Of a stretch of 16,166 bases of DNA, positions 86 through 16,166 are shown in pieces. The notes under the pieces were generated by a model. That model saw only the letters and a list, made by a program, of their open reading frames with translations, was not told the origin of the DNA and made no database searches. Source of the DNA: an uncultured Pelolinea sp. (GTDB taxonomy: Bacteria > Chloroflexota > Anaerolineae > Anaerolineales > Anaerolineaceae); assembly GCA_937902055.1 (NCBI GenBank), contig CALGUJ010000226.1, forward strand, positions 1 through 16,166, given 5' to 3'. The position numbers and the translations under genes are program-made. Position 1 is the stretch's first letter, and the number at the start of each line of letters is the position of its first letter.

Positions 86-772
86 TCAGCGGACTTCGCA
101 GACCTTCACGAAGCGCTGTAATTTTTCCGCCGCCTGCCGCAGCCAGGTATCCTCTTCATGCCCTGGTTTAACATTTGTGACTTTGGTATTAAACGTGTTT
201 AGTCTTTGCAAATAATATTTTTCCGCCCCACGGATCATCTTCCCGATTTCAAACAAGTCCTCTTCATTCAATAGCGCTCGATCCACGGTGGTGCGGAATT
301 CATAATCCACCCGCCCCCCCAGCAGCAGCGCAACGCTTTCCCGGATCGGTTCAATCGCAAAGTCCACGCCGCAGACGCGCGCGTATTTGCTGAAAGGCGC
401 CTTGACGTCCATGGCCACGTAATCCAACAGCCCGGCCCCGATCAACTCCCTCAGTAAATCGGGGCGGCTGCCGTTGCTATCCAGCTTGAGCGCGAAACCC
501 ATCTCCTTAATCGCGCGCGCAACAACCGGCAGGTCCGCCTGCAGGGTCGGTTCGCCGCCAGTGATGGTGACCGCTTCCAGCAGCCCGCGGCGCTGGCGCA
601 GGAAATCCAGCACGCCCTCCAAAGGGATTTCCGGCGCGTATTGTTCCGGCCAGACCAGTTCGGGGTTGTGGCAATACGGGCAGCGGAAATTGCATCCGCG
701 CGTGAACAGGATGGCGCAGGTCTTGCCGGGATAATCCACCAGCGAGAATTTCTGCAGTCCACCCAGGATCAT
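86..772 (-). CDS. nrdG: Anaerobic ribonucleotide reductase activating protein
   Basis: This radical-SAM activase uses a 4Fe-4S cluster and S-adenosylmethionine to install the glycyl radical on NrdD. The protein is 228 aa. The cluster cysteines C27, C31 and C34 form the CxxxCxxC motif (RGCNFRCPYC), and the SAM-contacting GGEP motif is at about 72-75. The N-terminal stretch GLQKFSLVDYPGK is typical of the NrdG2-type family. The start is the ATG at 772, which overlaps the nrdD stop as ATGA and so implies translational coupling. An open frame continues upstream to 889, but it lies inside nrdD and lacks conserved residues. The gene is the last of the nrdDG operon and so falls under the cobalamin riboswitch ahead of nrdD. 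A pyruvate formate-lyase activase is an alternative, made unlikely by the neighbour. Confidence 0.93.
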   Translation of the reverse strand: MILGGLQKFSLVDYPGKTCAILFTRGCNFRCPYCHNPELVWPEQYAPEIPLEGVLDFLRQRRGLLEAVTITGGEPTLQADLPVVARAIKEMGFALKLDSNGSRPDLLRELIGAGLLDYVAMDVKAPFSKYARVCGVDFAIEPIRESVALLLGGRVDYEFRTTVDRALLNEEDLFEIGKMIRGAEKYYLQRLNTFNTKVTNVKPGHEEDTWLRQAAEKLQRFVKVCEVR

Positions 773-2859
773 GCCGGCACTTTGTAATGCTTGCGCTCTT
801 TGAACTCGGCTTTCTTGCCGTTGTTCCACTGCTTGACCGGGCGCAGGTAACCCACCACGCGCGAGTACACCTCGCAGCTTTCGCCGCATTGGTCACAGAC
901 TTCGACCTCGCCGTTGATGTAGCCGTGGTTCGGGCAGACGCTGAAACTGGGCGTCAACGTGAAATACGGCAGGTGGTAATTTTCGCAGATCTTGCGCACC
1001 AGCTTTTTCACCACAGCCGGATCGTGGATGCGCTCGCCTAGGAAGAAATGCAGCACGGTTCCGCCGGTGTATTTCGCCTGCAGCGAATCCTGCAGATCCA
1101 GCACTTCAAAGATATCCTCGCTGAAATTGACCGGCAGGTGGCTGGAATTGGTGTAGAACGGGTCTTGCACCTGGCGGCCCAGGCCGTTGGCAAAGTGGCA
1201 ATCCTCAAAAGCCCGCTGGTCCAGGATCGCCAGCCGGTAGGAAGTGCCTTCCGCCGGGGTGGCTTCCAGGTTGTAATTGTTGCCGGTTTCCTCCTGGAAT
1301 TCCAGCAGCCGCGTGCGGATATGCTCCAGCACATCCTCGGCCATCTGCTTGCCCTGCGGGCCGGCGATACCTTCGCCCAGCAGGTTCAACAGCGCTTCAT
1401 TCATGCCGATCACGCCGATGGTGGAAAAGTGGTTCTTCCAGTAGCTGCCGTGGCGGCTCTTGATATCGCGCAGGTAGAATTTGGTGTAGGGGTAAAGGTT
1501 ATTTTCGGTATAAATTTCCAGCGCCTTGCGCTTGATCTCCAGGCTTTCCCTGGCCAGCAGCAGTAATTCATCCAGCCGCCGGAAAAAGTCCGCACGGCTC
1601 TTTTGGGTGTAGCCGATGCGCGCCAGGTTGAGCGTGACCACGCCGATCGAGCCGGTCAGCGGGTTGGAGCCGAACAGCCCGCCGCCGCGCTTTTGCAGCA
1701 TGCGGTTGTCGATGCGCAGGCGGCAGCACATGGAACGCGCGTCTTCCGGATTCATGTCGGAGTTAATGAAATTGGAGAAATACGGCAGCCCGTAGCGGGC
1801 GGTGGCTTCCCATAATTGTTTGATCGAATCCCGCTCCCAATTAAAGTCCCTGGTGATGCAATAGGTCGGAATGGGGAAGGTGAACACGCGCCCGTTGGCG
1901 TCGCCCTCGGTCATCACTTCGAGGAAGGCCTCGTTGAAAATATCCATCTCCGCCTGGAATTCTTTATAGGTTTCCGCCTGGGGCTTGCCGCCGATGATGA
2001 CCGCCTGATCGGCGTAATACGAGGGCACGGTCAAGTCCAGCGTGACGTTGGTGAAGGGGGTTTGAAAACCTACGCGCGTGGGTACGTTGATGTTGTAGAT
2101 GAACTCCTGCATGGCCTGCTTGACCTCTGCGAACGTGAGCCGGTCGTAGCGGATGAAGGGCGCCAGCAGGGTATCGAAATTACTGAAAGCCTGCGCCCCG
2201 GCCGCCTCGCCCTGCAGGGTATAGAAAAAGTTGACTACCTGTCCCAGAGCAGTGCGGAAATGTTTGGGCGGGCGGCTGGAGATCTTGCCCTCCACGCCGG
2301 TGAAACCGACCGCCAGCAGATCGTACAAGTCCCAGCCCACACAGTAGACCGATAGCAGGTTCAAATCGTGCAGGTGAAAATCGCCGCGGCTATGCGCCAG
2401 GCGCACCGGCTCGGGATAGACCATGTTCAGCCAGTAATTCTTGGTCACCTCCGAAGACACGTAATAATTTAATCCTTGCAGGGAGAAAGCCATATTGCTG
2501 TTCTCGTTGACCTGCCAGTCGCTGCGGCTGAGGTAATCGTCCACCAGACCGTTGTTCAATTTATTGGCAATCTCGCGCATGCGCTTGTGCTGGTCGCGGT
2601 ACAGGATGTAAGCCTTGGCGGTTTTTTTATAGCGTGAATCCAGCAGCGCGTCTTCCACGATGTCCTGGATCTGCTCGACCCCGGGGATGGTTGACCGGAT
2701 TGCATTGAGCGCCTGGGCGATGACCCTGTCTTTCAACTCCAGCGCCTCGCTCTCGCCGAATTCGCCGGTGGCCCTGCCCGCGTTCCATATCGCGCGCGTG
2801 ATCTTGGCTTCGTCGAACGCAGCCACGCGCCCATCCCGTTTTTTAATCGACAAAAACAT
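769..2859 (-). CDS. nrdD: Anaerobic (class III) ribonucleoside-triphosphate reductase
   Basis: NrdD reduces ribonucleoside triphosphates to deoxyribonucleotides without oxygen, using a glycyl radical made by NrdG. The protein is 696 aa, a normal length. It opens with an ATP-cone allosteric domain (IKKRDGRVAAFDEAKI from about residue 4). The catalytic region includes SMCCRLRIDNR and the loop GGGLFGSNPLTGSIG. The C-terminus carries a zinc-type cysteine cluster (VCPNH, then CDQCGESC) followed by RVVGYLRP, whose Gly670 is the expected radical site. I chose the ATG at 2859 because AGGAGG lies 7 nt upstream and the ATP-cone begins at once. The open frame to 3006 would translate the riboswitch and terminator. 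The gene shares the ATGA overlap with nrdG. The electron donor (formate or thioredoxin-like protein) cannot be told by eye. Confidence 0.96.
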   Translation of the reverse strand: MFLSIKKRDGRVAAFDEAKITRAIWNAGRATGEFGESEALELKDRVIAQALNAIRSTIPGVEQIQDIVEDALLDSRYKKTAKAYILYRDQHKRMREIANKLNNGLVDDYLSRSDWQVNENSNMAFSLQGLNYYVSSEVTKNYWLNMVYPEPVRLAHSRGDFHLHDLNLLSVYCVGWDLYDLLAVGFTGVEGKISSRPPKHFRTALGQVVNFFYTLQGEAAGAQAFSNFDTLLAPFIRYDRLTFAEVKQAMQEFIYNINVPTRVGFQTPFTNVTLDLTVPSYYADQAVIIGGKPQAETYKEFQAEMDIFNEAFLEVMTEGDANGRVFTFPIPTYCITRDFNWERDSIKQLWEATARYGLPYFSNFINSDMNPEDARSMCCRLRIDNRMLQKRGGGLFGSNPLTGSIGVVTLNLARIGYTQKSRADFFRRLDELLLLARESLEIKRKALEIYTENNLYPYTKFYLRDIKSRHGSYWKNHFSTIGVIGMNEALLNLLGEGIAGPQGKQMAEDVLEHIRTRLLEFQEETGNNYNLEATPAEGTSYRLAILDQRAFEDCHFANGLGRQVQDPFYTNSSHLPVNFSEDIFEVLDLQDSLQAKYTGGTVLHFFLGERIHDPAVVKKLVRKICENYHLPYFTLTPSFSVCPNHGYINGEVEVCDQCGESCEVYSRVVGYLRPVKQWNNGKKAEFKERKHYKVPA

Positions 2860-2866
2860 TGCTGAT

Positions 2867-2872
2867 CCTCCT
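2867..2872 (-). promoter_or_regulatory. Strong Shine-Dalgarno of nrdD
   Basis: The minus strand reads AGGAGG 7 nt before the ATG at 2859. This fixes the start of NrdD and shows that the upstream in-frame codons are leader RNA. The site lies just beyond the terminator T-run, so it is transcribed only when the terminator is not formed. Confidence 0.85.
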
Positions 2873-2884
2873 GGTATTTCGAAT

Positions 2885-2940
2885 AAAAACACCGGGCTCG
2901 AAGGCCAGGTGTCCATTGTCAATGGCCTTGCGCGAGCCGG
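2885..2940 (-). terminator. Riboswitch-linked intrinsic terminator in the nrdD leader
   Basis: On the minus strand a long stem pairs CCGGCUCG (2940-2933) and AAGGCCA (2929-2923) with UGGCCUU (2907-2901) and CGAGCCCGG (2900-2892), with a small bulge and an internal loop. UGUUUUU follows (T-run 2889-2885). The loop contains a second small self-complementary segment, CCATTGTCAATGG on the plus strand (2913-2925), which competes with part of the main stem. It begins 4 nt after the aptamer closing stem and ends before the ribosome binding site. This is the usual arrangement for transcription-terminating riboswitches. Confidence 0.85.
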
Positions 2941-2944
2941 GGTA

Positions 2945-3029
2945 AACCTATGCATTGGCATTCGGGATCGGACTATGACCGTTGCGCGACAGTACCGGAA
3001 TCTCACCGGATTTCACCGCATGCCAGGTT
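2945..3029 (-). ncRNA. Cobalamin (B12) riboswitch aptamer
   Basis: The 85-nt minus-strand RNA carries the hallmark cobalamin core: CCGGUGAGAUUCCGG (P4 hairpin), then ACUGUCGCGCAACGGU (P5, where ACUGU pairs with ACGGU across a CGCGCA loop). Nested outer stems close it: AACCU with AGGUU (P1, both ends) and GGCAU with AUGCC (P2). It is compact and lacks the long peripheral P8-P12 arms of the classical btuB type, so it resembles the short class II/variant forms. An intrinsic terminator follows. The family is known to repress B12 uptake and synthesis genes, and also B12-independent isozymes when cobalamin is plentiful. Here it would turn off the class III reductase. Ligand preference (adenosyl- versus aquo/methylcobalamin) cannot be read by eye. 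Confidence 0.85.
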
Positions 3030-3046
3030 GTCAATTTCTATAATTA

Positions 3047-3074
3047 ATATTAGCATATCCATATCGCGCGGCAA
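3047..3074 (-). promoter_or_regulatory. Candidate promoter of nrdDG
   Basis: The minus strand reads TTGCCG (3074-3069), a 16-bp spacer, then TAATAT (3052-3047); each hexamer matches 4 of 6 consensus bases. Transcription would start about 10 nt before the riboswitch aptamer. The location fits, but the match is weak and the region is AT-rich. Confidence 0.3.
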
Positions 3075-3127: not shown

Positions 3128-3970
3128 ATGATGAAACCAAAACTCGCAATCCAGATCATGCCAATACTTGCATTCACTTTTTCAATCGGGTGCGGACCTG
3201 CTTCTGCAATTCCGAACTTCAACCTGGTCCCAACCCCAACCGCCGAACCTACCCGGTGGGCGCCGCAACCCGGCGACCGCCTGCAGATCCAGTATGCCGA
3301 TTACCCGCCCGACATAACCATCGACGCGCAGGTCTTCGCGCTGGACCTGTTCGAAACGCCCCAATCTTCCATCGATGAGCTGCACGCCGCCGGCAAGAAA
3401 GTGATCTGTTACGTGAGCACCGGCTCCTGGGAGGAATACCGCCCGGACGCGGGCGATTTTCCAGCCGACGCCATCGGCAGTGATTACGAGGGTTGGCCGG
3501 GCGAGAAGTGGCTGGACATCCGCCATTATGAAAAGTTCGCCGGTATCATGCAGGCGCGCTTCGACCTGGCCAAGAACAAGGGCTGCGACGGCATCGACGC
3601 CGATAACATGCAGAATTTTCAGGAAGAAAATACCGGCTTTGAATTTAGCGCGGAAGACCAATTGGCGTACAACATCTGGCTGAGCGAACAAGCCCACCAG
3701 CGCGGGCTGTCCATCGGCCTCAAGAACGATCCCGAACAGGCGCAGGAACTGGTTGGGTACTTCGACTGGTCGCTGATCGAGGATTGCGCCGTTTACGATT
3801 GGTGCGAGCTGCTGCAACCTTTTACGCAAGCCGGCAAAGCGGTCTTCCAGGTTGAGTACAGCGACGAATTCGATTCCGGCGCGCAGTTTTGCGGCGCAGC
3901 CGGGCAGAAGGGTTATTCCGCCTTTTTCAAAAACCGCGAACTGGACGCCTGGGTGGAATTCTGCCCTTAA
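3128..3970 (+). CDS. GH114-like secreted glycosidase (putative lipoprotein)
   Basis: The 280-aa protein looks like the TM1410/endo-alpha-1,4-polygalactosaminidase-like TIM-barrel family (GH114, COG3868), whose studied members act on galactosaminogalactan-type polymers. The N-terminus has a hydrophobic segment (about 7-20) ending in FSIGC, a weak lipobox with Cys22. A low-complexity linker follows (PTPTAEPT, 35-42), then the barrel from about residue 50. Family-like motifs are QIQYADYPPD, VICYVSTGSWEEYRPD (92-107), the acidic cluster CDGIDADNMQ (153-162) and WSLIEDC with E218/D219. Several cysteines (94, 153, 220, 226, 255, 279) may form disulfides outside the membrane. ATG 3128 is preceded only by a weak AGGG. 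The gene diverges from nrdDG and seems monocistronic. The family call is fairly safe; the substrate in this organism is unknown. Confidence 0.8.
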   Translation: MMKPKLAIQIMPILAFTFSIGCGPASAIPNFNLVPTPTAEPTRWAPQPGDRLQIQYADYPPDITIDAQVFALDLFETPQSSIDELHAAGKKVICYVSTGSWEEYRPDAGDFPADAIGSDYEGWPGEKWLDIRHYEKFAGIMQARFDLAKNKGCDGIDADNMQNFQEENTGFEFSAEDQLAYNIWLSEQAHQRGLSIGLKNDPEQAQELVGYFDWSLIEDCAVYDWCELLQPFTQAGKAVFQVEYSDEFDSGAQFCGAAGQKGYSAFFKNRELDAWVEFCP

Positions 3971-4781: not shown

Positions 4782-5424
4782 AGTAATGGCCTTGCCGGCT
4801 AAACCGCACATCGAATATGAGAAGCGCCTGTGGGCGGACGGCTACCAGGTGGTGGCCGGGTTGGACGAAGCCGGGCGCGGCGCCTGGGCCGGGCCGGTAT
4901 TCGCGGCGGCCGTGGTGCTGCCCAACGACGAACGCATTTGCAGCCTGCTTTCCGGCGTACGCGATTCCAAGCGCATGACCGCGCTGCAGCGCCGCCGCTG
5001 GCAGGACTGCATCAAGTCCGCTTCAGTAGCCTGGGCAGTGGGCAGCGCCGACAACACTGAGATCGATGAATTGGGCATCGTTCCCGCCACCTGCCTGGCC
5101 ATGCGGCGCGCCCTGGAAGAGATCAACAATCCCCCACGCTATCTACTGGTGGATTATCTCAACATCTCGGATTGTTCCGCCCCGCAATTATCCATCCCCA
5201 AGGGCGATTGCCAGTCTTTGAGCATCGCGGCGGCTTCCGTGTTGGCCAAGGTCAGCCGGGATGCTTTTATGACGCAGATGGATGAACAATATCCCGGATA
5301 CGGGTTTGCACAGCACAAAGGCTACGGCACTGCGCTGCACGTTGCCAGTCTGGCGCAAAAAGGTCCTTGCGCGATCCACCGCATGACCTTCCACCCGCTG
5401 AGCAGCGGCTTCCTGACGAACTGA
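4768..5424 (+). CDS. rnhB: Ribonuclease HII
   Basis: RNase HII cuts the RNA strand of RNA/DNA hybrids and removes single ribonucleotides misincorporated in DNA. The protein is 218 aa, normal for the family. Its acidic metal-binding set is present: D33 and E34 in GLDEAGRGAWAGPV, D129 in LLVDYL and D147 in KGDCQS. DSKRM (66-70), SIAAASVLAKVSRD (152-165) and HKGYGT also match. The ATG at 4768 has AGGA 7 nt upstream, inside the end of the glycosyltransferase gene; ATG 4786 is a possible but weaker alternative. The 14-bp overlap implies co-transcription and perhaps translational coupling. The pairing has no obvious functional logic. Confidence 0.95.
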   Translation: MRRNKVMALPAKPHIEYEKRLWADGYQVVAGLDEAGRGAWAGPVFAAAVVLPNDERICSLLSGVRDSKRMTALQRRRWQDCIKSASVAWAVGSADNTEIDELGIVPATCLAMRRALEEINNPPRYLLVDYLNISDCSAPQLSIPKGDCQSLSIAAASVLAKVSRDAFMTQMDEQYPGYGFAQHKGYGTALHVASLAQKGPCAIHRMTFHPLSSGFLTN

Positions 5425-5480
5425 GTGGGGATTTCGTCTGCAAGCTTGAGTGACGGTAGCGTTACCATTTTTCCAGCCAA

Positions 5481-5544
5481 GAGATTGCTTCCTCAAGAGG
5501 ATGCTCCGCGATCGCGATGCTGCGCATCGCTCGCAAAGTCATAC
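5481..5544. repeat. Degenerate intergenic repeat, copy A
   Basis: The segment is framed by GAGATTGCTTC (5481-5491) and GCATCGCTCGCAAAGTCATA, as is copy B at 5619-5660. Inside is a perfect hairpin, GCGATGC-TGC-GCATCGC (5514-5530). From memory, similar 'GAGATTGCTTC...CTCGCAA.GTCAT' units are scattered in intergenic DNA of some Chloroflexota and other genomes. It lies in the gene-free stretch 5425-5734, in which I see no coding region. Confidence 0.55.
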
Positions 5545-5560
5545 TAGGATGTTTGTTTTC

Positions 5561-5587
5561 GCGAGCCGCGTAGCGGCGTGGCGATCT
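5561..5587. repeat. Palindromic segment between repeat copies
   Basis: GCCGC-GTA-GCGGC (5565-5577) forms a small hairpin and is followed by GTGGCGATCTC. It lies between repeat copies A and B and probably belongs to the same composite element. No coding potential is seen. Confidence 0.35.
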
Positions 5588-5618
5588 CATCCCGAATTTT
5601 CATATATGGTCAAAAAAC

Positions 5619-5660
5619 GAGATTGCTTCACTATGCGTAGCATCGTTCGCAAAGTCATAT
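5619..5660. repeat. Degenerate intergenic repeat, copy B
   Basis: This shorter copy has the same ends as copy A: GAGATTGCTTC (5619-5629) and CATCGTTCGCAAAGTCATA (5641-5659). The centre is different but again palindromic (ATGC-GTA-GCAT). Conserved ends with a variable hairpin centre suggest a mobile or recombining short element. Confidence 0.55.
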
Positions 5661-5661
5661 G

Positions 5662-5684
5662 AAATCTGTGTTCATCTGAGGTTA
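5662..5684. repeat. Short dispersed repeat, copy 2
   Basis: AAATCTGTGTTCATCTG followed by AGGTTA resembles the segment at 50-71. It directly abuts repeat copy B and the ATPase terminator. Confidence 0.4.
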
Positions 5685-12528: not shown

Positions 12529-14748
12529 TTAGAAATCCAGGCGCTTGACTTGCTGGCGCAGCCAGGAAGCCGCGGCGGTTTGATGGCGCTTGACGACCAA
12601 CACGCTGCAAGGTGCTTTTTCGGCAACCTGATCGGCAACCTTTCCGAACATGGAACCGTTCATGGCATGTTCATCCGCCGACCCCATGATGATCAGGCTG
12701 TATGGATTATTCCTGATCTCGTTCAGCAAAGCCTTATCGACCTGATCGGCAAACAAGAGCCGCAGGACCGCGTTTTTGGGCAGTTCGCCCAATTCCGTGA
12801 TCACCACTTCCTGCAAATTCGCCATCTGGTCTTCCAGGACTTCCTCATCTTTTGAAGCCGGCAGGACGCGAACGTAATCGATCTGGGCATTTTCCTGAAT
12901 GGCGATTTTGCTGGCCAGTTGCACTGCCAGGCGGCAATGCACGCCCGTTCCCACCGGCACCATGATGGTATGAATTTCACTCAGGCCATGATCGACCAAA
13001 ACGCCAAGGTTGGTCTTGGATTCCAGGCAAAGCTTCCTGACCGCATCCTCCGAAAGGTAATGGGAAAGGTGTCGTTCAGGCCATTGAACCAGGATCATGC
13101 GCGTGTCGGAATCATTTTCGACTTCCTTCAGGATGCTCTGGATGATCGAGCCGCCTGCCACCATTTTGGTATACATGGGAACGTTGCGTTCAATTGCATA
13201 ATGGATGAATTTCTTCATCACGGCCATACGTTGTTTATTCATGCTTTCCATGTACTGCTCGCGGACATCCGGTTGATTGACCAAAGCATCCGAAACCACG
13301 GACATCATGCAGATATTCAGATCTTTATCAGCTTGAGCCAGAATAGCCGCCAACCCGATCAAGCTGTCATCCTCGGTGGTGTGAAAAACCGGAACAACGA
13401 TGCGGGCTTTGCCCGGCAGAACTGCTGTTTCACGGGAGCGGATCCACAATCTCGCTGCCTGTTGGCCATAGAAATAAACCACAAAGGCACCAATGATACC
13501 GAAAGTAAACAACAACGGTTTTAGGTCGGAGAAAATGATCACCAACAAACAAGTAAAGGAAGCCACAATGGGAGTCAACGGGAAAAGCGGCGCCTTGAAA
13601 GGTCTTTGGATGGCCGGATATTTTTTATGCAGCCGGATCATGGCCAAATTCGACCAGAACAGCACGAACAGGTAACCGGCGGAAGTGATGAAGCTGAGAA
13701 AATCCACCACACCAATAATGGTGATCAACGCTGAAACCAGACCGATGAAGAGCACCGCCATGAATGGCACGCGGAAGCGATTCAGGCGCGCCAGATTATG
13801 CGGCCAAAGCGTATCGCGGCTTAAAGTGAACGCTTCGCGCGTGGCGCTGAGCATGGAGGAGTTGACCGAAGTGAGCGTGGCGACCAGGCCGGCCAGCGCC
13901 ATCATCGGTACGCCGAACTTCGGCATGAATTTCGCGATCGCGTCCGTCAGGGCAGTTTCGGAACCCGCCACCTGCTGCCAGGGAAGCGTACCCAAGGTAA
14001 CGGTCATGGTGACTGAGTAGATCAGCGTGATCATCGTCAGGCTGACCAGGATGGCGATGGGGATGCTTTTATCCGGCCGGCGGATTTCCTCTGCGTCATC
14101 AGCGATCACTTCAAAACCAACGTAAGCGGCGTAGATCAGGGCAATGGTCTTCAGCAGGGAAGCAACGTTTTGTTTCCCCGTCGCGTGGGCGAAAAATTGA
14201 CCGCCGGGCGCCAGCGTTGCCCAATGGAAACCATTCGGAGAAATGAACCCATAAATGATATAGGTGCCAAAGATCAACAGCAGTGTCCCGCCCAAAATGA
14301 TCTGCGCGTTGCCAACTAGGGATACTCCCCTGATATTCAACAGGGTAAAGACAATGATCACCAGAATGGCGGTCGGTACAATGGGAACCATGGGAAAAAA
14401 CACGCTCAAGGAGTAAGCAAAACCGACCGCGGAAAGGGCGCAGTAGAACGTGCTGGAAATGCAATCCATAGACCCCACCAGGAAAGACAGCAGCCCTTTA
14501 CCCCAGGCTTCGCGCACGTAGGTCATCGCTCCGCCCGTCTCCGGGTATACGGTTGCCAATTCGCTGTAATTCAAGGCGATGCTGAAACTCAACAAGCCGC
14601 CGATGATGATCGCGAGTATGGAAGCCGATCCTGAAATCGCAGCCGCATGGCCGGTCAAAACAAATATCTCCGATGCGATCGTGCCGGCCGTTCCCAGCAT
14701 GATCACCTGAAAGAGGCTCAGTTGTCTTTTTAAAACACGTTTTGTCAT
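12529..14748 (-). CDS. APC-family permease fused to tandem UspA domains
   Basis: The 739-aa membrane protein has two parts. Residues 1-430 are an APC-superfamily amino-acid/polyamine permease with about 12 hydrophobic segments. They include the broken first helix MLGTAGTIAS (17-26) and the conserved TSVNSSMLSATREAFTLSRD (293-312). Residues 448-590 and 592-721 look like two universal stress protein (UspA) domains, starting RIVVPVF and TIMVPVG and ending CSVLVVKRH. The second lacks the canonical G2xG9xG(S/T) pattern (GSAD, then FGK), so ATP binding is doubtful. Fusions of this type are known in bacteria and archaea; the cytoplasmic UspA part is thought to regulate transport. Substrate unknown. 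ATG 14748 has only a weak GAG upstream. It follows a paralogue 40 bp away on the same strand, so both are likely co-transcribed. Confidence 0.9.
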   Translation of the reverse strand: MTKRVLKRQLSLFQVIMLGTAGTIASEIFVLTGHAAAISGSASILAIIIGGLLSFSIALNYSELATVYPETGGAMTYVREAWGKGLLSFLVGSMDCISSTFYCALSAVGFAYSLSVFFPMVPIVPTAILVIIVFTLLNIRGVSLVGNAQIILGGTLLLIFGTYIIYGFISPNGFHWATLAPGGQFFAHATGKQNVASLLKTIALIYAAYVGFEVIADDAEEIRRPDKSIPIAILVSLTMITLIYSVTMTVTLGTLPWQQVAGSETALTDAIAKFMPKFGVPMMALAGLVATLTSVNSSMLSATREAFTLSRDTLWPHNLARLNRFRVPFMAVLFIGLVSALITIIGVVDFLSFITSAGYLFVLFWSNLAMIRLHKKYPAIQRPFKAPLFPLTPIVASFTCLLVIIFSDLKPLLFTFGIIGAFVVYFYGQQAARLWIRSRETAVLPGKARIVVPVFHTTEDDSLIGLAAILAQADKDLNICMMSVVSDALVNQPDVREQYMESMNKQRMAVMKKFIHYAIERNVPMYTKMVAGGSIIQSILKEVENDSDTRMILVQWPERHLSHYLSEDAVRKLCLESKTNLGVLVDHGLSEIHTIMVPVGTGVHCRLAVQLASKIAIQENAQIDYVRVLPASKDEEVLEDQMANLQEVVITELGELPKNAVLRLLFADQVDKALLNEIRNNPYSLIIMGSADEHAMNGSMFGKVADQVAEKAPCSVLVVKRHQTAAASWLRQQVKRLDF

Positions 14749-14788: not shown

Positions 14789-16166
14789 TTATGTTATTGA
14801 TTTTACCCGATGTCGCAGCCAGGTGGCGGCCACACCCTGGTGGCGCTTGATCACCAAAACCGGGCATTCAGCATTCTCGGCAACCGAATCGGCCACCTTG
14901 CCAAACAGATAGCCGTTGGGTTTCTCGTCTTCGGAAGAGCCGATGATGACCATATCGTAGTGATTATTCTTTATCTCCGCCAGCAGAGCATTCTCGACCT
15001 GGTCGGAGAACAGCAAGCGCAGCGAAGCATTCTGGGGCTGTTCTTTCAACTCGGTAATGACCACTTCCTGCAGATAGGCCATCTCGTCTTCCAGCATCTC
15101 CACGTCTTTCTCGGTTGGCAGGACGCGCACGAAATCCAGGTGGGCGCTTTCCAGCCCGGCGATCTTGTTGGCGATTTGCACTGCCAGCCGGCAGTGCAGC
15201 CCGCCGCCAACCGGAACCAGAATTGTCTGCATTTTTTCCAGGCTGTGTTCGTTCAACACGCCAACATTGGCTTTGACATTGCTGCAAATCTCCCTGATCG
15301 AACCCTCGGAAAGGTGGCTGGCGGAATGTTTTTCGGGCCAGGGGAGCAGGATCAGGCGGGTGTTGGTATCCAGCTCGACTTCCTGCTGCAAGCTCTCGGC
15401 AAATGATTTGCCGACCACCATCTTGGTGTACATCGGCACGTTGCGGTCTACCGCGTAATGAATGAATTTCCGCAGGATTTGTTGGCGCTGCCCGTCCACT
15501 TTTTTCAGGTATTCATCCCGGTTGCCGTTTTGGTTGATCAACGCATCCGTCACCACCGAGGTCAGGCACAGGTTGAGGTCTTGATCCGCCTGGGCCATGG
15601 CGGTTCCAAGGCTGATCAAATTAGCAGACAGGTGCGGCTGCAGGATCGGGATGAGAAGGCGCGATTTTCCGGGAACCACATCCTTTTTATGCGTTTCCAC
15701 ATAGGTCTTCGAAAATTCTCTCAAATAATAATAGATTGTCAGCGTACCGATCACACCCACCAGGAAAAGCAGCGACTTGCGGTCGGAAAACAGGATCACG
15801 ATCAGGCAGGTCAAGGTCGCAACCAGCGGGGTCAGCGGGAAGAGCGGCGCCTTGAACGGCCGGTTGATGGCCGGAAATTTTTTGCGCAGGGTGATCATGG
15901 CAAAGTTAGAGAAAAACAACACGAACAGGTAACCGGCGGAGGTGATATAGCTCAGAAAGTCGACCACCCCGTTGATCGAGATCAGGGAAGAAATCGTACC
16001 GATCAGCAAAATAGCCATGAACGGTACGCGATAGCGGTTCAGGCGGGAAAGGAAAGCCGGCCAGGCGCCGTCGCGGCTGAGGGTGAAGGTTTCACGGGTG
16101 GCGCTTAGCATGGACGAATTGACCGAGGTCAAAGCCCCGATCATGCCGGCCAGGCCGATCATCACC
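14789..16166 (-). CDS. APC permease-UspA fusion, paralogue (5' end cut by window edge)
   Basis: The frame runs open to the right edge, so the true start is outside. The 458 residues visible align without obvious gaps to residues 281-738 of the neighbouring permease/UspA gene; about 280 N-terminal residues are missing. Matching landmarks are TSVNSSMLSATRETFTLSRD, RPFKAPLFPLTPLVATLTC, RNVPMYTKMV, LHCRLAVQIANKIAG and CPVLVIKRH. The last transmembrane helices come first, then two UspA domains. The second UspA nucleotide motif is altered here too (GSSE, then FGK). By eye the membrane part is more alike between the copies than the first UspA domain. The pair arose by tandem duplication and probably serves related substrates. 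Confidence 0.9.
   Translation of the reverse strand, partial: VMIGLAGMIGALTSVNSSMLSATRETFTLSRDGAWPAFLSRLNRYRVPFMAILLIGTISSLISINGVVDFLSYITSAGYLFVLFFSNFAMITLRKKFPAINRPFKAPLFPLTPLVATLTCLIVILFSDRKSLLFLVGVIGTLTIYYYLREFSKTYVETHKKDVVPGKSRLLIPILQPHLSANLISLGTAMAQADQDLNLCLTSVVTDALINQNGNRDEYLKKVDGQRQQILRKFIHYAVDRNVPMYTKMVVGKSFAESLQQEVELDTNTRLILLPWPEKHSASHLSEGSIREICSNVKANVGVLNEHSLEKMQTILVPVGGGLHCRLAVQIANKIAGLESAHLDFVRVLPTEKDVEMLEDEMAYLQEVVITELKEQPQNASLRLLFSDQVENALLAEIKNNHYDMVIIGSSEDEKPNGYLFGKVADSVAENAECPVLVIKRHQGVAATWLRHRVKSIT

Follow-up and report, generated by a model that had tools for sequence, protein, structure and literature searches.

The control of nrdDG, the genes for class III ribonucleotide reductase and its activase, by vitamin B12 is a known mode of regulation, described in 2004 and again in 2013. 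The first of these studies, in the excerpt available, reports B12-elements before nrdDG in the delta-proteobacteria Desulfovibrio vulgaris and Desulfuromonas, notes that NrdJ is encoded as well and suggests that B12 represses the operon (PMC545781). The second, likewise in excerpt, annotates a riboswitch in the nrdDG 5′ UTR of Propionibacterium (Cutibacterium) acnes, with nrdRJ encoded elsewhere, and proposes the same logic (PMC3848588). An earlier note on the DNA studied here had cited metE and class I nrdAB as known cases of such control; this list was incomplete, as control of nrdDG had been published with the same reasoning. In Cupriavidus without its nrdDG plasmid, cobalamin counters the anaerobic defect, which the authors, in the excerpt available, credit to NrdJ (PMC2864759). 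For Chloroflexi, the cobalamin regulons of five members have been described, and isozymes of B12-dependent enzymes form one of the categories; the string 'nrd' is absent from the main text as available (PMC3766115). The available portions of PMC7733943 and PMC2667541 contain no nrdD switch.

Here, we analyse an nrdDG operon in a stretch of 16,166 nucleotides, the whole of which we refer to as the window. To judge from its sequence, the element in front of nrdD is a genuine cobalamin riboswitch of an already published kind.

The nrdDG locus

The aptamer lies between a divergently oriented gene of the GH114 family (3128-3970, plus strand) and nrdD on the minus strand, with nrdG after nrdD (Table 1). 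The equivalog score of NrdD and the adjoining gene for a radical-SAM NrdG activase mark the operon as that of a class III reductase, and the C terminus of NrdD carries the motif RVVGY, which we take to be of the glycyl-radical type. AGGAGG followed by nrdD and nrdG had been read from the letters in the earlier note; profile matches confirm both genes, with the start codon of nrdD, an ATG, at 2859. The NrdG2 match (TIGR02495) begins at residue 43 of the listed nrdG reading frame, the first residues of which are probably over-called.

The closest relative of the locus is found in Anaerolineae bacterium Ch43 (locus L001, genome G001), with about 90% DNA identity over two stretches that total 12.6 kb. 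Positions 5398-5683 of the window have no blastn match to L001, while the flanking stretches align at about 90%. Further along the window, two neighbouring minus-strand genes (12529-14748 and 14789-16165) encode amino-acid-permease-like proteins, the profile scan covering the first, with C-terminal halves that are similar by eye; the pair is probably a tandem duplication.

Table 1. Features of the nrdDG operon and its leader in the window, in the direction of transcription
Feature	Position	Strand	Basis
Extended -10 promoter element (probable) TGCTAATAT, about 22 nt upstream of P1	3047..3055	-	by eye
AdoCbl-II (RF01689) cobalamin aptamer	2955..3034	-	cmscan
P1 5′ arm UGGCAUGCGG	3016..3025	-	9 of 10 pairs with 2956-2965; covariation
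P4 hairpin CCGG-UGAGAUU-CCGG	2995..3009	-	Rfam structure
P5/L5 UGU-CGC-GCA	2983..2991	-	Rfam structure; CGCG 2985-2988 is a possible kissing partner of L13
P6 CGG-UCAUAGU-CCG	2969..2981	-	Rfam structure
P1 3′ arm CCGAAUGCCA	2956..2965	-	covariation
P13 stem and L13 loop GGCU-CGCGCAA-GGCC	2924..2938	-	-4.5 kcal/mol; L13 CGCG 2931-2934
Antiterminator 5′ arm AAGGCCA (with GGCUCG at 2933-2938)	2923..2929	-	pairs with 2895-2907
Intrinsic terminator hairpin ACACCUGGC-CUUCGA-GCCCGGUGU	2889..2912	-	-11.8 kcal/mol, 8 of 9 pairs
Antiterminator 3′ arm UGGCCUU-CGAGCC, overlaps terminator	2895..2907	-	folding energy
Terminator U-run UUUUUAUU	2882..2889	-	sequence
Shine-Dalgarno AGGAGG, outside all switch stems	2867..2872	-	sequence
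nrdD, class III ribonucleotide reductase, 696 aa, ATP cone	769..2859	-	NF006126 1055.5 bits, TIGR02487 566 bits, PF13597, PF03477
nrdG, radical-SAM activase of NrdD	86..889	-	TIGR02495 NrdG2 220.7 bits; PF04055

The aptamer

A search of the window with all Rfam models (Infernal cmscan) returned the AdoCbl-II model (RF01689) on the minus strand, matched over its full length with 39.6 bits against a gathering score of 36.5 (E 1.6e-6). Three matches in the 16-kb window have an E of up to 1, and this one alone exceeds its own cut-off. The cobalamin aptamer proposed in the earlier note is thus borne out, and both motifs that had been quoted from it, GGTGAGATTCC and GTCGCGCAACGGT, are present. Of the stems assigned there, P1, P4 and P5 stand and P2 falls, since RF01689 has one closing stem and three hairpins, which we take to be P1, P4, P5 and P6 in the usual naming. 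The span given for the element, 2860-3029, holds P1 as drawn here but cuts off the 5′ end of the Rfam match at 3034.

The assignment to RF01689 follows from a score above the curated cut-off together with a P1 helix that closes the core and carries compensatory changes. Over nine leaders (L001, nearly identical to the window, was left out), 81 of 90 P1 cells are standard pairs and a double change occurs at each of the ten positions. When P1 arms were swapped between leaders, none of 5000 trials equalled the 81 paired cells (mean 68.8), and the double changes and the number of pair types were equalled in 12 and 78 of the 5000, respectively; sliding P1 by one or two bases left at most 54 standard cells. 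The arms of P4 become AGGG/CCCU in relatives. Folding of the whole leader, compared with dinucleotide shuffles, gave no excess stability (z -0.70), so the support for the switch comes from covariation and not from the overall fold.

The expression platform

Downstream of the aptamer, the leader continues with the P13 stem-loop, where GGCUCGCG is found in all ten nrdD leaders compared and CCUUCGCGUCAAAGG in three metE leaders. CGCG occurs in both L5 and L13 and is invariant over the ten nrdD leaders, an invariance that leaves covariation uninformative; from this complementarity we infer a kissing pair between the two loops.

The long stem and T-run noted earlier are also present, as a terminator hairpin directly followed by UUUUAUU. 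A script detected a hairpin directly before a U-run in eight of the ten nrdD leaders (window, L001, L002, L003, L007, L008, L094 and L182). It found none in L005, where a short mismatched one is visible by eye, and the L006 leader has neither a detectable terminator nor a U-run. A simple terminator scan of the window's leader detected none, probably because the stem is mismatched.

The anatomy is that of transcription attenuation in that terminator bases 2895-2907 are shared with the antiterminator pairing. The antiterminator is predicted at -19.5 kcal/mol and P13 plus terminator at -16.3 kcal/mol, values close enough for a kissing loop that contributes a few kcal/mol to decide between them. 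In its minimum free energy fold, the platform forms a longer hairpin, which includes the antiterminator and ends next to the U-run. The antiterminator duplex of the window is better than 97% of 500 shuffled arms, and in seven leaders the corresponding figure is 92-100%. When arms were swapped among leaders, 1514 of 5040 permutations were as good as the cognate arrangement (cognate mean -11.9, swapped -11.4 kcal/mol), and the antiterminator step is thus without covariation support. Because the Shine-Dalgarno sequence lies outside all stems, control of transcription is a better reading than control of translation.

A probable extended -10 promoter element lies upstream of P1 (Table 1), where we place it by eye: a TGn-TA(A/T)(T/C)(A/C)T-like element is likewise visible in seven of eight relatives compared, L002 being the exception. 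A sigma-70 promoter scan gave no minus-strand site at 3047..3055 and reported two promoter-like sites, both on the plus strand.

Proposed mechanism

We consider it probable that this AdoCbl-II riboswitch attenuates the transcription of nrdDG, with cobalamin promoting the terminator and turning the operon off. Without cobalamin, the L13 loop and the 3′ strand of P13 would pair with the 5′ side of the terminator to form the antiterminator, and RNA polymerase would continue into nrdDG. Once cobalamin is bound, L5 would kiss L13 and hold P13 shut, so that the antiterminator would be blocked and the terminator would end transcription. With nrdDG off, the cell would rely on its B12-dependent class II reductase. 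The sequence itself supports the earlier reading of a cobalamin riboswitch with a terminator that controls nrdDG.

Reporter data for other cobalamin switches speak on both sides. In the available excerpt of that study, an L5-L13 kissing loop is described and 38 of 86 reporters were repressed by corrinoids, 37 of these 38 with a predicted terminator; the 48 reporters without repression count against the attenuation model (PMC9600662).

Alternative readings

The switch could have the same design but respond in nature to methyl- or hydroxocobalamin, or to another corrinoid, rather than to adenosylcobalamin. Among the class II cobalamin aptamers are some with a preference for smaller upper ligands, which lends this idea some weight, as does a score just 3 bits over the AdoCbl-II cut-off. 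Since the class II reductase that the switch logic would track uses adenosylcobalamin as its cofactor, we regard a different effector as rather unlikely.

Reversed logic is less probable still. Here, the long hairpin GGCUCG...AAGGCCA/UGGCCUU...CGAGCC, extended by ACC/GGU, would be the real terminator, and B12, by keeping P13 closed, would block it and thereby turn nrdDG on. This would agree with the folding prediction for the platform, in which the long hairpin has the lowest energy and ends next to the U-run. However, in six more distant relatives (L002, L003, L007, L008, L094 and L182) it is a compact hairpin not using P13 that stands directly before the U-run, and a cell that has NrdJ would gain little metabolically if B12 switched on its B12-independent enzyme. 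Moreover, the functional switches in the excerpted reporter study repress (PMC9600662).

That the element is a decayed relic which has lost its response is very improbable: while decay seems to occur within the same clade, as in the L006 aptamer without a detected terminator, the aptamer stems, P13, the terminator and the U-run are all in place both in the window and in G001, whose aptamers are 99% identical. Finally, a chance likeness to RF01689, which the small margin over the cut-off, the score of L094 just under it (36.2 bits; no match at gathering) and the lack of an Rfam match at gathering in L002 might suggest, is ruled out by the Rfam score (E 1.6e-6, in the right place and on the right strand) and the covariation of P1 across phyla, and also conflicts with cobalamin-family matches at gathering before nrdD in L003, L005, L006, L007, L081, L097, L102 and L182.

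The partner reductase in relatives

Cobalamin-dependent repression of nrdDG presupposes a second reductase, and the earlier note had accordingly expected a class II enzyme in this cell. Such an enzyme is present in the closest relative, and from there we infer it for the window's own organism. G001, in which the nrdD switch scores 37.2 bits, encodes a single PF02867 protein, which TIGR02504 identifies as NrdJ (647 bits, cut-off 400) and which is located beside NrdR. In G002, G005 and G019, the last with an RF00174-type switch before nrdD, one PF02867 protein each was also scored as NrdJ (class II). A search for NrdB, the class I beta subunit, covered these four genomes and matched in none of them. 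Class II and class III are hence the sole reductases found in the four, which makes B12, rather than oxygen, the sensible signal; a class II reductase works with or without oxygen.

Among nine genomes examined that have a strong switch before nrdD, class II was found in eight. Six of these are G001, G002, G005, G449, G454 and G534; in the other two, G450 and G452, the protein is divergent and RTPR-like and scores below the RTPR family cut-off. Searches with PF02867, TIGR02505 and TIGR02504 did not find it in G453, which has an aptamer without a terminator, or in G451, which has no switch. Thus, the two members of the NrdD clade for which no class I or II reductase was found lack either the switch or its terminator. 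Retention of the switch appears to track the presence of class II, a lead rather than a proof in a set of ten genomes.

Other cobalamin switches were seen in these and related genomes. G001 has a second one (C1:137629-137784; L083, L086), an RF00174 match of 43.5 bits before an operon that resembles B12 ABC transport by eye. In the Anaerolineae loci L134 (G081) and L159 (G360), RF01689 matches of 56.1 and 34.3 bits, the latter under the cut-off, lie upstream of the B12-dependent nrdJ, which is the opposite of the usual logic.

Distribution of the switch and of its NrdD clade

To follow the switch beyond the window, contigs of genomes were scanned for NrdD relatives, and the 80 best of 555 loci were retained. 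A model, R1, was built from eight copies, including the window, L081 (the same place as L008) and L094, whose matches to it are therefore built in; L001 is nearly identical to the window, and L002, L003, L005, L006, L007 and L182 lie outside the building set. Applied to the 80 loci and the window, R1 detects a switch immediately in front of nrdD in 12 of the 81. Eight matches are strong (75.6-85.6 bits; window, L001, L002, L003, L005, L006, L007 and L008) and four are weak (28.4-39.3 bits; L052, L060, L062 and L074). At gathering, Rfam confirms L003, L005, L006, L007 (as RF01482) and L182, but not L002. The four weak loci, two of them labelled Melainabacteria, have a different cobalamin-like aptamer before an nrdD of another NrdD clade, which suggests independent recruitment.

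In an NrdD tree of 62 rows (the window, 46 of the 80 loci, 13 of 30 loci from an Anaerolineae class search, L094 and L097), the window falls into a clade of ten rows (support 99/95), nine of which have the switch directly upstream; the tenth, L004, has none. The clade comprises Chloroflexota (window, L001, L008 and L094, a relative of G001), Gottesmanbacteria (L002), Parcubacteria (L003), Berkelbacteria (L007), Elusimicrobium (L006) and L005. Twelve other rows from the class search (L103-L114) form a distant clade without the switch, and L097 stands beside L115, outside the window's clade. The switch label requires at least four changes on this tree, and none of 500 shuffles needed as few. Over ten members, aptamer distances correlate with those of NrdD (first 450 aa) at r 0.69, reached in none of 5000 permutations, and at 0.53 (44 of 5000) when L001 is left out, as expected if both had moved together.

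The class search gave 43 nrdD matches (E 1e-100 or better) in 42 of 396 Anaerolineae genomes. Among the 30 loci examined, a switch, by Rfam at gathering or by R1, was seen in L102 only, which belongs to G001; the switch is thus not general to nrdD in Anaerolineae. These comparisons make it probable that nrdDG and its switch pass from one phylum to another together.

In the Gottesmanbacteria genome, nrdDG and the switch (L002) lie in a 17-kb stretch with 38.9% GC, compared with 46-48% at two other loci, a probable recent import; the resolvase-type recombinase nearby also fits an acquired island. L002 and L007, the latter on a 7.9-kb contig, could be foreign to their bins. Misbinning was also considered for L003, which looks genuine (IF-2-like gene; 32.6% GC against 34.4-34.5% at the genome's other loci).

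Cobalamin switches in CPR bacteria

The phylum of G449 (Gottesmanbacteria), which we take to be Patescibacteria/CPR, has R1 matches at E 1e-3 or better in 70 of 379 genomes. Thirty of these loci were examined (L180-L209), and three precede nrdD (L180-L182, of which L180 and L181 are the same loci as L007 and L002) and one an nrdA-like gene (L187). An Rfam cobalamin-family match with gathering score coincides with the R1 position in 16 of the 30. By both counts, B12 riboswitches look fairly common in CPR; a literature search returned, among the matches listed, no paper on cobalamin riboswitches in these bacteria. In six of eight CPR loci picked by eye and scanned, a DUF4430 protein is encoded downstream, and the switches before these proteins may point to B12 uptake or binding.

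Two further R1 matches deserve mention. That of L187 (G754, Patescibacteria), which has no Rfam cobalamin match at gathering, lies in front of a gene for an NrdA-like protein of class I (PRK06539; partial protein, 732 bits, cut-off 988). In G449, a second match (C19:49074-49148, 35.8 bits) is found about 1 kb past nrdJ on the same contig.

Taken further, riboswitch and nrdDG might form a portable, self-regulating module that has moved intact among Chloroflexota, at least three CPR lineages (Gottesman-, Parcu- and Berkelbacteria) and Elusimicrobiota, is kept only together with a class II reductase and decays without one. Some CPR bacteria with genomes of 600 to 900 kb would then choose their DNA-precursor enzyme by scavenged B12. 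We see the case for and against this broader proposal as evenly balanced. The spread across phyla adds a testable point, a regulatory RNA that seems to move along with its operon and to decay where the B12-dependent partner is missing.

Comparison with known systems

The core architecture of a known cobalamin riboswitch structure, including P13 with its complementary loop, is shared by the switch in the window, whereas the outer P1 is drawn in a register other than that of the Rfam alignment. The same core and the CGCG in L13 recur in AdoCbl-II switches from other relatives of G001 (L088-L091 and L093), which control metE instead of nrdDG (L089 and L091 by NCBIfam, the other three by eye). In L093 (G046), the riboswitch and terminator are followed by an ORF of 41 codons and then by the metE-like gene. 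In a comparison of just these two sequences, this ORF aligns with the N-terminal part of the L187 NrdA-like protein (71% over 24 aa, E 7e-10); the arrangement looks like a metE gene that has captured an nrd leader.

Among the described nrdDG switches, those of D. vulgaris and Desulfuromonas are alike in having a cobalamin riboswitch before the class III genes, NrdJ in the genomes and the same proposed repression logic; they differ in phylum, and the comparison made here covers gene context and logic (PMC545781). P. acnes, according to the excerpt, additionally has nrdAB under riboswitch control (PMC3848588), whereas no class I enzyme was found in G001. In Chlorobium, a riboswitch lies upstream of nrdD as in the window, but the available text describes the Chlorobi switches as mainly translational (PMC8620254), while the one in the window has a terminator.

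Compared with these systems, the locus is a clean new example: in its relatives, only class II and class III enzymes were found, and B12 supply can explain the choice between the two while oxygen alone does not. What goes beyond the cases that we found in the literature is a switch-bearing NrdD clade across Chloroflexota, three CPR lineages and Elusimicrobiota. This host clade and its apparent joint transfer with the switch are the part most worth following, and they would add B12-sensing control to what has been described in CPR bacteria.
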